A stretch of 64,000 nucleotides of DNA, taken from assembly GCA_947041165.1 (NCBI GenBank), contig CAMRCY010000009.1:1-64000 (forward strand). The letters are read 5' to 3'. This document shows positions 43,230-47,957 of this stretch, piece by piece; positions within the stretch are counted from its first letter, which is position 1, and each line of letters opens with the position of its first letter. The notes under the pieces were generated by a model that saw only the letters and a program-made list of their open reading frames with translations, had not been told where the DNA came from and did not search any database. The DNA comes from an uncultured Deferribacteraceae bacterium. GTDB lineage: Bacteria; Chrysiogenota; Deferribacteres; Deferribacterales; Mucispirillaceae. The translations under genes were made by a program, and so were the position numbers.

Positions 43230-44450
43230 TTATTTTTTCTCGTTACTATAAAGATATGCTTTATGCGATAGTTCAGGAAAAGAATGAACTTGAAAATCAT
43301 CACCTTTAAATTTTATATAAAATTGCATTGTTAAAGACGAATAATCATCACCGTTACAATACTTCTTGCTACCATCTAACTCAAGATCCATACCAAGTTT
43401 CTCCTTAATATAATCTTGAGAATTAGTATCTAATGGGGCAAATTGCCAAGGTCTTATCAAGTACAAACCGATTGATAAATTTATAAGCCCTACATCATGC
43501 TGATCTACTGCTTGCTTATACGCCTCACTAAATTGTAACGCTTCATCACCGTTCTTATCGCTATTATCTGCTAACGCTATCGCTCTTTCAAACACATTCC
43601 ATAGATTATCAATATCATCTTGCTTTCTATTTTCATCGTTACCTAAATTCCAAGAACTCTCAGGCGCTCCATCAAAATTAGTAGGCAGAGGCTCAGTCAC
43701 TTCTAGAAATTTAGCTAGCTTAGTTGCTATATTTATCTTATTTTTATCAGCGATACATCTATTAAAAATACCCATAATTGTAAATGGAGATATATCTTTT
43801 AATGGTGTACTACTATCATCTAAAAGCTTCTCCATAAAACTAGGAACACCATCTACACTATTTCCAATTAAATATATTTCCTCTAATAACTCTTTACGTT
43901 TATTTTTATATAGTAAAAGTTTATCGGTAACATCTTCATTAAACTTTGTCCACTGATAACGATTACTTCCCTCTCCAAATCTTTCTATTAATAATTGAGA
44001 ATTTGTAAAACTATTTATATCTTGAGCTTTATCATTAAATGATAAATCAATCAACCCTTTACACCATGGCCCATTATCTGGATCTACTTTAACAATCGTT
44101 GATCTGTATGCTGTAAAATACCACGTTTTTTGTTTAAAACTCTTATCCCAATTAATATCTAATTTTTTCCCATCATTATGATTTTTAACAACTGTTCCAA
44201 CAGCCTTAATATGCATACAAGGAACATAGAAACCGTTATTATTGAAAGGAAGATTATCCTTCTGTTTTAATGAAGATTTAATCGCAATCTTATCTCCTAC
44301 TTTTATAGATTTTACATCTTCAACAATCCTATCCCCGTATCCATTCTCCCAAATATCATTCGCTACAAATCTTGCTGTTTCATCGTTATCACTCCACATT
44401 GCACCTACAAACCAATATGATAATGAATCTATTTTTTCTACCTTACTCAT
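43230..44450 (-). CDS. Orphan McrB-type N-terminal module (EVE-like), no AAA+ domain
   Basis: A 406-residue soluble protein. Its start (YWFVGAMWSDNDETARFV, ENGYGDRIVEDVKSIKVGDKIAIKSS, IKAVGTVVKNHNDGKKLDINWD, WYFTAYRSTIVKV) matches the N-terminal EVE-like recognition domain I recall from McrB-type AAA+ proteins, including the following linker and the helical segment up to WQFAPLDTNSQDYIKEKLG. In those proteins an AAA+ GTPase motor follows, but here the gene stops at 406 residues without a Walker A, and neither a motor nor an mcrC partner is in the neighbourhood. Either a remnant of a type IV-like restriction system or a stand-alone module. Bounded by terminators on both sides. Confidence is for the gene; the domain assignment is pattern memory. 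Confidence 0.78.
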   Translation of the reverse strand: MSKVEKIDSLSYWFVGAMWSDNDETARFVANDIWENGYGDRIVEDVKSIKVGDKIAIKSSLKQKDNLPFNNNGFYVPCMHIKAVGTVVKNHNDGKKLDINWDKSFKQKTWYFTAYRSTIVKVDPDNGPWCKGLIDLSFNDKAQDINSFTNSQLLIERFGEGSNRYQWTKFNEDVTDKLLLYKNKRKELLEEIYLIGNSVDGVPSFMEKLLDDSSTPLKDISPFTIMGIFNRCIADKNKINIATKLAKFLEVTEPLPTNFDGAPESSWNLGNDENRKQDDIDNLWNVFERAIALADNSDKNGDEALQFSEAYKQAVDQHDVGLINLSIGLYLIRPWQFAPLDTNSQDYIKEKLGMDLELDGSKKYCNGDDYSSLTMQFYIKFKGDDFQVHSFPELSHKAYLYSNEKK

Positions 44451-44587: not shown

Positions 44588-44928
44588 TGGAGGTGAGGAG
44601 AATCGAACTCCTGTCCAGCTACCCTACAATATAGACCACTACATGTTTAGTCTGTACTTATTTCTCGCTATCCTCATCTATACAGACGTAGTCAATTCAA
44701 GCAAAGCCTCTTTGTTTAAACTGATTGGTAGAGACATACAACCAGTCTTGCCTGTATCATTTTACACCCGCTACCGTAACCACAGGCAGGTGACGGCGAA
44801 GATGTAGCTGCCTAGGCAGCTAGTGCTAAATTATCTTCAGCTTTTAAATTTGTCAAGTTTTTAACTTGGACCTTGAACCAAGACATGCGTCCTATACCCA
44901 CAGATAACTGTCGAAACCTAGCACCCCC
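44588..44928 (-). ncRNA. ssrA: tmRNA
   Basis: Rescues ribosomes stalled on broken mRNA, together with SmpB. The 341-base minus-strand gene opens GGGGGTGCTAGG-TTTCGACAG and ends with a T-arm GGACAGGAGTTCGATTCTCC. Acceptor arms GGGGGTG and CACCTCC pair over 7 bases with one G-U, and a single discriminator A follows, so CCA is not encoded. The tag reading frame (about 44812-44844) gives A-E-D-N-L-A-L-A-A before TAG, possibly preceded by K; the exact resume codon is not certain. The stop is followed by the GCTGCC/GGCAGC hairpin, and pseudoknot-like G-rich stems follow. Intrinsic terminator just downstream. Not a tRNA. Confidence 0.97.
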
Positions 44929-45818: not shown

Positions 45819-46409
45819 TTAATCCTTCAATATTATATTAAAATCTAACACATCATCTGCAATTCTTAAATGATCCTTTCTGTTAGCTGTGTAAATTATA
45901 TCTACTCCTGCCGACTTCGATTCTAAAAAAGCTCGTTCAATTTCATCTCTACTTATAGCATCTATTGATACAAACGGCTCATCAAATATCACAATTTTTT
46001 TACTCATCAGATATCCATAAATAAAAAGAAGTCGTTTTTGTCCATCACTTAATTTCAGAGAAGGTCGATCCTTATTAACTCCAATACGTGATAAAAGTGA
46101 TGTTGCTAACTCCATATCATTGCCTACAATTAATAAAGCTTCATCAATTATATACTCTCTAAAAATTAAACTTTCAGGTGATTGTAACAAAATTCCACAA
46201 TCCTCTAGCTTGAAAAATTTCTCTATTTTGCCTGATGGATAATCAAAAACATCTGCTATAGATTTAACCAATAATGATTTTCCAGAGCCGTTACTACCAT
46301 AAATTGCTGTTATCTTACCTCGACTAATATCGTAACTTACAGCTTGCTTATTCTTCAAACTATATCGCCAATCAATTACTGATAACACTTTGTCATTATT
46401 ATTATTCAT
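45819..46409 (-). CDS. ABC transporter ATPase, second of a pair
   Basis: A 196-residue nucleotide-binding domain with Walker A GSNGSGKS (about 36-43), a Q-loop at LLQSPES, the signature KLSDGQKR and Walker B KIVIFDEP. Slightly short for an NBD (usual 210-230), and the D-loop and H-loop region reads YTANRKDHL, with a His preceded by Lys-Asp that may stand for the switch His. It lies 19 bases after the repeat-bearing ATPase. Two ATPases after rplQ recall the ecfA1-ecfA2-ecfT order of other bacteria, but no ecfT or substrate-binding gene follows here. Substrate unknown. Confidence 0.85.
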   Translation of the reverse strand: MNNNNDKVLSVIDWRYSLKNKQAVSYDISRGKITAIYGSNGSGKSLLVKSIADVFDYPSGKIEKFFKLEDCGILLQSPESLIFREYIIDEALLIVGNDMELATSLLSRIGVNKDRPSLKLSDGQKRLLFIYGYLMSKKIVIFDEPFVSIDAISRDEIERAFLESKSAGVDIIYTANRKDHLRIADDVLDFNIILKD

Positions 46410-46428
46410 AAATATCTCAATATTATCA

Positions 46429-47355
46429 TCATATTATAATCTCTATAATTGTGTCTGCATAATCATCAAAATGCGTGTCGTGAGTTGCTATTATAAATGG
46501 AGTTGTTTTACTCATTTCAATAATCTCACGTGATATCATTGACGCATACTCATCATCTAACATATCTAGCGGTTCATCAAGAAGAATAACTTTATCTCGT
46601 CCCATCTCCAATGCTATCATTATTGATAATCGCTTTAACTCTCCACCTGATAAATCATAAATCGATCTATCAATAAATTCGCTAAACCGACTTATATCGC
46701 TGTTTGCATCTGTAAGCACAGATGATAATATTAACTCATCTTTAAGGTAACCTGTCACAAAATTGAACTCTGCTGATGAATGTAGGTATATTGAATCTAA
46801 AATTTTTATATCATTAACTTGATGATCGTACTTAGTATTACTAACCGTATCGCTACTGTCTTTAGCAACACAATTCGCATGACTACTTAGATGAGTGCAA
46901 TTAGAGCTATCAACTGCATCACTGCTCTGTGAGTGAACGCCACTGAGAACATCAACTGCATCACTGCTCTGTGAGTGAACGCCACAGAGAACATCAACTG
47001 CGTCACTGCTCTGTGAGTGAACGTCACTAAGAACATCAACTGCATCACTGCTCTGTGAGTGAACGCCATTGAGAACATCAACTGCATCACTGCTCTGTGA
47101 ATTAATGTGACTGTTAATACTATTGATTATATCTCCACTACTTAATTCAACCACACCAGCAATTGAACGAAGTAATGTTGATTTACCTGTCCCAACTCTA
47201 CCCTTTATAACCAAAATATTGCCGTAAGGTATTGTCATGTTTAGGTTATCAAATAATGGTTCGTTCTCGTTAAATGATATCGTTACTGAATTAAAGGTTA
47301 AAAAAAAGAGAGGATTAACCCTCTCTTCTTTTATTATATTTATTCTTCTTTTCAA
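46429..47355 (-). CDS. ABC transporter ATPase with internal 14-residue tandem repeat
   Basis: A 308-residue ABC ATPase: Walker A GRVGTGKST (about 54-62), signature YDLSGGELKRLSI and Walker B KVILLDEPLDML, switch His in ATHDTHFD. Between the Walker A and the Q-loop region it has an insertion of 4-5 copies of a 14-residue unit SQSSDAVDVLxxVH, then a further Ser-rich stretch, before the fold resumes. An insertion there would sit on the surface between core strands. The reading frame starts with TTG at 47355 directly after the rplQ stop; no better start exists before Met40. The rplQ terminator overlaps its first codons. It may be poorly expressed or a decaying gene, but the catalytic motifs are intact. 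Confidence 0.8.
   Translation of the reverse strand: MKRRINIIKEERVNPLFFLTFNSVTISFNENEPLFDNLNMTIPYGNILVIKGRVGTGKSTLLRSIAGVVELSSGDIINSINSHINSQSSDAVDVLNGVHSQSSDAVDVLSDVHSQSSDAVDVLCGVHSQSSDAVDVLSGVHSQSSDAVDSSNCTHLSSHANCVAKDSSDTVSNTKYDHQVNDIKILDSIYLHSSAEFNFVTGYLKDELILSSVLTDANSDISRFSEFIDRSIYDLSGGELKRLSIMIALEMGRDKVILLDEPLDMLDDEYASMISREIIEMSKTTPFIIATHDTHFDDYADTIIEIII
46920..47095 (-). repeat. 42-bp in-frame tandem repeat
   Basis: Four full 42-bp units plus a fifth partial one, each encoding SQSSDAVDVL plus four residues ending in VH. Because the unit is a multiple of three, copy-number change keeps the frame. Confidence 0.9.
47299..47330 (-). terminator. Intrinsic terminator after rplQ, inside the ABC gene's 5' end
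   Basis: On the minus strand AAGAGAGG-GTTAAT-CCTCTCTT followed by a run of T: perfect 8-base stem. It lies 26-56 bases past the rplQ stop and overlaps codons 9-20 of the ABC gene. Confidence 0.85.
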
Positions 47356-47895
47356 TTAACTTTCTTTTGTTGGATTGTCAGTTACCACTGTTGCTGGTGC
47401 TTCAGTCACAACCGTTGCTGGTGCTTCAGTTACAACCGTTGCTGGTGCTTTTTTAGCAACTGTTTCAGTAGCCTTCGTAGGTGTCGACTCTACAACATTA
47501 TTAGCAGCATCTTTCTTACTTGGCTTTGGTATCTCAACAATAGGATCAGTAAATTCGATGTATGCCATGTTTGCATTATCACCACGTCTTTTACCAGATC
47601 TAATTATTCTTGTATATCCACCATTTCTATCTTTAAATGAGTGAGCTATAACATCAAAAAGTCTATTAACTGTGTCTTTATGATGCAATCTTGCTATAGC
47701 AACTCTTCTTGTTGCAAGCGTACCCTTTTTACCTAATGTGATTAATGGTTCAATATAAGTACGAAGATATTTCGCTTTCTCTAAAGTAGTTTCTATTCTG
47801 CCATGCTCAATTAATGATTTCGCCATGTTGCTAAAAGTAGCTTTACGATGGGCTGTTTTCATTCTGAATTTATTATTTACAACTGAATGCCTCAT
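47356..47895 (-). CDS. rplQ: 50S ribosomal protein L17
   Basis: Large-subunit protein that closes the alpha operon. Start at ATG 47895 (MRHSVVNNKFRMKTAHRKATFSNM matches the family); a TTG at 47904 is also in frame. The core ends near residue 130, beyond which lies a tail with KPSKKDAANN and three copies of the 8-residue unit APATVVTE, giving 179 residues against a usual 115-130. The tail is encoded by 24-bp tandem repeats and is unlikely to be structured. It is followed by a terminator. Confidence 0.94.
   Translation of the reverse strand: MRHSVVNNKFRMKTAHRKATFSNMAKSLIEHGRIETTLEKAKYLRTYIEPLITLGKKGTLATRRVAIARLHHKDTVNRLFDVIAHSFKDRNGGYTRIIRSGKRRGDNANMAYIEFTDPIVEIPKPSKKDAANNVVESTPTKATETVAKKAPATVVTEAPATVVTEAPATVVTDNPTKES
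47380..47452 (-). repeat. 24-bp in-frame tandem repeat in rplQ tail
   Basis: Three near-identical 24-bp units encoding APATVVTE, followed by a diverged TDNPTKES end. Confidence 0.85.
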
Positions 47896-47957
47896 AAGCT
47901 CCAAAACCTCAAATTATTTATATTATAAATGTTCAATTTATATACTTTAATAACAAT

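Follow-up and report, generated by a model that had tools for sequence, protein, structure and literature searches.

The gene for an ABC nucleotide-binding protein of 308 amino acids, here termed ATPase A, carries an in-frame array of 42-bp units inside its catalytic domain, and in four related species the loop at this site has grown by different in-frame duplications, with little change elsewhere in the enzyme. The gene lies in a 64,000-nucleotide stretch of DNA (the window) from an uncultured member of the Deferribacteraceae, a relative of Mucispirillum, whose genome comprises 2.14 Mb on 70 contigs with a completeness of 98.56%. The reading that accounts best for the data, to which we assign a probability of about 0.6, is that an in-frame minisatellite has repeatedly been made in a permissive hairpin of an ECF-like ATPase whose core is constrained, the insert being mostly neutral and born of slippage.

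ATPase A is encoded on the minus strand (positions 46429 to 47355) with a TTG start codon located directly after the stop codon of its upstream neighbour rplQ (47356 to 47904, minus strand), which was assigned to ribosomal protein L17 by its open reading frame and a Pfam match. The assignment of ATPase A is based on PF00005 (E 1.3e-16), the ortholog alignment and the AlphaFold2 model. A further gene on the minus strand (45819 to 46409) encodes ATPase B, a likely partner of A, which consists of 196 amino acids and shows the signature LSDGQ and an asparagine in place of the switch histidine. The open reading frame and the ortholog alignment placed the following motifs of ATPase A, likewise on the minus strand: Walker A with the sequence GRVGTGKS (residues 52 to 59; 47179 to 47202), the signature LSGGE (residues 235 to 239; 46639 to 46653), Walker B with the catalytic glutamate, ILLDE (residues 257 to 261; 46573 to 46587), and the switch histidine His292 (46480 to 46482). 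The first-pass annotation had stated that all catalytic motifs remain, which holds for Walker A, LSGGE, the DE of Walker B and the switch histidine but not for the Q-loop glutamine, whose position is taken by His192 (46780 to 46782, minus strand). Since a histidine is found here in 25 of 26 orthologs, with a proline in the remaining one as aligned, the repeat is not the cause of this exchange. The switch histidine of B is replaced by asparagine in all 25 usable rows of the 26-row motif table (row L135 was left out), and nearly all of these proteins have an LSDGQ or LSEGQ-like signature. A and B thus depart from the canonical motifs in complementary ways, across families, and these departures predate the repeat.

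The array itself spans positions 46909 to 47100 on the minus strand and was described by Tandem Repeats Finder with a period of 42, 4.6 copies, 94% matches and a score of 349. Four full units (46933 to 47100) encode the sequence SQSSDAVDVLxxVH and are followed by a partial fifth unit (46909 to 46932) that is exact over eight residues and divergent beyond, the unit starts being residues 86, 100, 114, 128 and 142 of ATPase A. Amino-acid differences among units 1 to 4 are confined to two unit positions, and the units are told apart by several base differences. The in-frame self-match at an offset of 42 comprises 47 of 48 bases, a value that was equalled by none of 500 dinucleotide shuffles and none of 500 codon shuffles, and the alignment of 26 orthologs places the array between Walker A and the Q-loop position at residue 192. 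Accordingly, both the initial description of four full and one partial 42-bp unit between these motifs and the statement that the repeat stays in frame with a unit length divisible by three were borne out. The G+C content of the array is 0.48, as opposed to 0.32 for the remainder of the gene. No further real copy of the 42-bp unit exists in its own genome, nor any in three congeners, and not a single 10-mer of it recurs in the other arrays sampled; a dispersed mobile minisatellite was therefore rejected. The array resembles known bacterial coding minisatellites and VNTRs in its multiple-of-three unit, in the 94% likeness of its units and in being one of many arrays of the genome, but it differs from them in that it sits within the conserved catalytic domain of an ATPase present in a single copy and that different units were re-made at one site in four related species, each represented by one genome.

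The comparison with orthologs revealed that the loop between Gly74 and His192 comprises 117 residues in the window and 55, 30 and 60 residues in three congeners (one genome per species), whereas it measures 11 to 22 residues in each of the 22 orthologs from other genera. The enlargement was thus present in all four congeneric genomes, with great variation in length between them. The earlier remark that such a place in a nucleotide-binding domain is unusual for a repeat was likewise supported. The loop is tandemly duplicated in frame in each of the four species, with periods of 42 bp in the window, 45 bp in G001, 45 bp in G002 and both 42 and 84 bp in G003, although array copy numbers are open to mis-assembly as named congeners are represented by MAG assemblies and the window's genome by 70 contigs. 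Self-matches of the loop amounted to 46 of 48 bases in G001 and 21 of 30 bases in G002, both at 45 bp, and to 28 of 36 bases at offset 84 in G003; the numbers of codon shuffles that equalled the self-match score were 0, 0, 1 and 1 of 500 for the window, G001, G002 and G003, respectively. Likeness to the native hairpin was found for the extra units of G002 and G003 (equalled by 0 of 300 codon shuffles), is borderline for those of G001 (21 of 300) and is not detectable for those of the window (153 of 300). A common unit-like stretch was detected in G001 and G002 (0 of 200 shuffles), and the remaining five cross-species comparisons of units within the genus were not significant. Because the extra copies resemble the hairpin in G002 and G003, a duplication of the native hairpin was likely the start of the enlargement in the congeners, and the unit of the window is likely a later replacement or has diverged past tracing.

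The enlargement stands out from the surrounding gene content. When 71 ortholog pairs from the window and G003 were compared, internal gaps of at least 15 amino acids occurred in only two of them, namely in ATPase A and in the gene at 43230 to 44450, and the proteins were otherwise colinear. At the level of the genome, a census of tandem arrays (minimum period 12, minimum score 80, with coding arrays that resemble ordinary repeat proteins left in) yielded 14.3 arrays per 100 kb in the window's genome, 3.2 in G003 and 1.2 in Mucispirillum; the underlying counts are 57 in a 400-kb sample of the window's genome, 11 in the window, 6 in 189 kb of G003 and 5 in 400 kb of Mucispirillum. Some of the coding arrays presumably belong to Sel1-like and ankyrin-like repeat proteins, to judge from their appearance. 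Tandem arrays are therefore common in the window's species, and this richness makes tolerated slippage in a permissive hairpin the likeliest cause of the 42-bp array. General slippage does not explain, however, that four of four congeners were hit at one site, since G003 has few arrays elsewhere. As the other proteins are colinear and the array-poor G003 also has an enlarged loop, the site is either a hotspot or exceptionally tolerant. Two general array traits were considered and discarded: a high G+C content was rejected, being above that of the flanks in 30 of 68 arrays (P 0.66), and the excess of multiple-of-three periods (21 of 21 coding versus 13 of 47 non-coding arrays) was set aside as biased evidence, because other periods break the open reading frame and then count as non-coding.

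Structure prediction with AlphaFold2 (26 sequences) gave confidence values of 85 to 96 for the core blocks of ATPase A and of 34 to 43 for the insert blocks, which were devoid of secondary structure; the insert was likewise unstructured in the prediction for G003. The part of the insert without predicted structure covers residues 91 to 179 (46819 to 47085, minus strand; pLDDT mostly below 50) between the strands 73 to 81 and 183 to 191, and 63% of these residues are S, D, N, T, G, H and Q, with a net charge of -11. It had been proposed that the insertion could tune or disturb coupling to a membrane partner. The models make such an effect appear unlikely: given an insert without predicted structure, an intact core model and an abundance of tandem arrays in the genome, it is simpler to assume tolerance. 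A disordered insertion within an ABC nucleotide-binding domain is also known from the regulatory insertion of CFTR NBD1, a phosphorylated segment located ahead of Walker A. The insertion in ATPase A, predicted to be disordered as well, differs in that it follows Walker A, is repetitive and is not conserved.

Under the preferred reading of a re-made minisatellite, ATPase A is a functional ABC ATPase under constraint that most likely powers, together with B, a separately encoded EcfT next to truA. The beta-hairpin loop that separates the Walker A helix from the Q-loop strand would represent a structurally permissive site in this genus, in which a short DNA segment has been tandemly duplicated in frame repeatedly, presumably through slipped replication or unequal recombination. 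Selection would filter the products against loss of frame and damage to the core and leave the repeat sequence itself mostly free, and the 42-bp array would be the product in the window's species, with its generally array-rich genome. The high G+C content of the array and the lack of detectable likeness between its units and the native hairpin speak against this reading. Of the other explanations, a decaying ATPase A with the repeat as its symptom, a possibility raised by the first-pass annotation, is hardly credible: the insert within the catalytic domain and the non-standard Q-loop are the only features pointing that way, the frame is open in all four congeners and the Q-loop histidine is family-wide. 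Moreover, dN/dS ratios, determined over six pairs each, range from 0.049 to 0.103 for the core of ATPase A and from 0.096 to 0.142 for ATPase B, and these low values place the core of A under strong purifying selection, so that the gene is not decaying. It is also very improbable that the 42-bp array is an assembly artefact. The assembly is fragmented, arrays near the read length are prone to mis-assembly and the genome contains many of them, but the units differ mutually at several bases, and at this very site three other assemblies each show a duplicated loop of their own.

A functional explanation is that the loop represents a selected, fast-evolving, disordered acidic-serine tether that is re-made in each lineage and tunes ATPase activity, the pairing with B or EcfT, or the binding of a partner. 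The enlargement in all four congeners, including one poor in other arrays, the rarity of large internal length changes among the 71 ortholog pairs and the restriction of amino-acid differences to two unit positions in units 1 to 4 are in line with this proposal, yet neither units nor lengths are conserved across species, no structure is predicted for the loop of the window or of G003, and orthologs without the enlargement keep the same core motifs as ATPase A; we regard it as unlikely. More doubtful still is an extended version in which the hairpin is a selected hotspot where a disordered acidic-serine tether is re-made to adjust how one of the two ATPases in a split ECF module pairs with its partner, and in which the ribosome additionally gates expression by allowing read-through of the rplQ terminator. 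The loop offers a usable natural experiment on the extent and the place of insertions that an ABC fold can bear.

The affiliation of A and B to the energy-coupling factor (ECF) transporters was examined by means of profile searches, motif comparisons and gene order. Both proteins carry an ABC nucleotide-binding domain (PF00005; 61.9 bits for A and 54.6 for B, cut-off 25), but they scored 56.7 and 48.1 bits with the curated ECF profile TIGR04520, far from its cut-off of 315, which no ATPase exceeded in the five genomes searched. Their strongest profile matches are mixed and include CydD, a bacteriocin exporter and ABC-F, and a search of solved structures with ATPase A returned a generic ABC domain, EcfA (4hlu) being the fifth-ranked entry. 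According to PMC6828968, ECF ATPases have a Q-helix motif after the Q-loop (X-P-D/E-X-Q-hydrophobic) and short C-terminal dimerisation helices. At the Q-helix position SPESLI is present in B and SAEFNF in A; P-E is kept in most orthologs and the invariant Q is replaced. C-terminal dimerisation helices are absent from A and B, which end directly behind the core domain, and S components of the two families searched (PF12822 and PF07155) had no match in the window's genome. Since the profile cut-off is not reached, the C-terminal helices are missing, the Q-helix is incomplete and S components of these two families were not found, A and B are not classed as ECF members; they probably work like EcfA subunits.

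An EcfT-like protein, which had been suggested as a partner to be sought elsewhere in the genome, was indeed detected: the window's genome encodes one CbiQ/EcfT protein (E 4.6e-18), located on contig C5 directly before truA, while A and B are located behind rplQ. Its coupling motif 1 reads AQKIRG and its motif 2 LKYKSN, with lysine instead of arginine, an exchange seen in this genus. X-R-X motifs of EcfT touch the ATPase dimer, as stated in the same source (PMC6828968). In an alignment of 23 truA-linked EcfT-like proteins, the arginine of motif 1 is present in 11 of 12 proteins from genomes with A and B (lysine in G017) and in none of 11 from genomes in which A and B were not detected, the latter representing two clades, families f2 and f6. 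The absence of the ATPases in f2 and f6 refers to ATPase searches and rplQ loci, with G034, G037 and G044 outside these loci and G044 also outside the search for B; neither gene follows rplQ in any of the 14 rplQ loci found in families f2, f6, f9 and f10. An exclusive co-occurrence of EcfT with A and B was rejected, since a hydrophobic EcfT-like open reading frame precedes truA in f2 and f6 too, and the coupling motif is the sole discriminator between EcfT proteins with and without detected A and B. The loss of the coupling arginine where the ATPases were not found provides a sequence-level test of the pairing between ATPases and EcfT in a split ECF-like module.

The ancestral order in Bacilli behind a conserved operon cluster is given as ecfA1-ecfA2-ecfT-truA in PMC8046335. 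As rplQ-A-B and EcfT-truA match the two halves of this order, they look like the ecf operon of Bacilli split in two. Like EcfA1 and EcfA2 of Bacilli (CbiO family), whose genes follow the alpha operon, A and B are two different ABC ATPases directly behind rplQ, and the EcfT adjoining truA has an A-x-x-R-G coupling motif. The differences lie in a size of about 195 amino acids without C-terminal helices, the divided operon, the histidine at the Q-loop glutamine of A, the asparagine at the switch histidine of B and the long repeat loop in the window's genus, in addition to the curated profile and the Q-helix discussed above. A is probably one member of a derived pair of ECF-type ATPases whose EcfT is encoded beside truA. 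The competing view is that A and B are not ECF ATPases and have another membrane partner or none, for instance as a soluble ABC ATPase pair. We consider it improbable, although it retains some weight: the curated ECF model was not passed, the profile matches are mixed, the S-component searches with two families were negative and EcfT-like reading frames remain beside truA where A and B were not found; against it stand the two halves of the order described for Bacilli in PMC8046335, the loss of coupling motif 1 in EcfT proteins without detected A and B, and the P-E of the ECF Q-helix motif that B keeps in most rows. A literature search retrieved no paper on Mucispirillum together with the energy-coupling factor and nothing on the case of the repeat-bearing ATPase A.

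A separate question of expression is raised by the rplQ terminator in the coding start of A. A terminator-like hairpin with a T-run (47303 to 47330, minus strand) covers codons 9 to 18 of ATPase A, and a simple scanner reported the same palindrome on the plus strand at 47306 to 47327. Such a terminator is located within 110 nucleotides of the rplQ stop codon in 22 of the 24 rplQ loci scanned, with or without A behind. It lies at or inside the start of A in nine of ten A genes with a checked rplQ neighbour (the window, G001 to G004, G016, G018, G020, G021 and G028), G018 being the one without it, and in four more A genes whose adjacency to rplQ is unchecked (G023, G027, G030 and G033). The rplQ-adjacent orthologs with this arrangement belong to several families (L011, L020, L025 to L032 and the window). 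Six further A genes have no or a weak hairpin, of which L012, L018, L021 and L022 are not behind rplQ and L015 and L023 are of unchecked position. Because the terminator is found at or inside the start of most rplQ-adjacent A genes, ATPase A appears to be read through it, and the PxFFL-like N-terminal stretch is therefore encoded by the terminator. Hypothetically, the ribosome might gate this read-through into A.

Additional observations concern the neighbourhood and the distribution of the genes. The two ATPases are fused into one protein of 387 to 409 amino acids at the loci L045 and L046 (genomes G031 and G017), and the fusion gene of L045 adjoins a gene that we take to resemble cbiD of cobalamin biosynthesis. 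The gene at 43230 to 44450 of the window encodes a 406-amino-acid protein without Pfam or NCBIfam match; its counterpart in G003 has 739 amino acids and is followed by a gene for 421 amino acids, so that part of the counterpart together with the neighbouring gene seems to be missing in the window. A tmRNA gene with the tag peptide AEDNLALAA is located at 44588 to 44928. A second coding array (24 bp, three copies) is present in rplQ at 47378 to 47450, in a C-terminal extension of L17, a protein of 182 amino acids in the window versus 131 in the relative G004.
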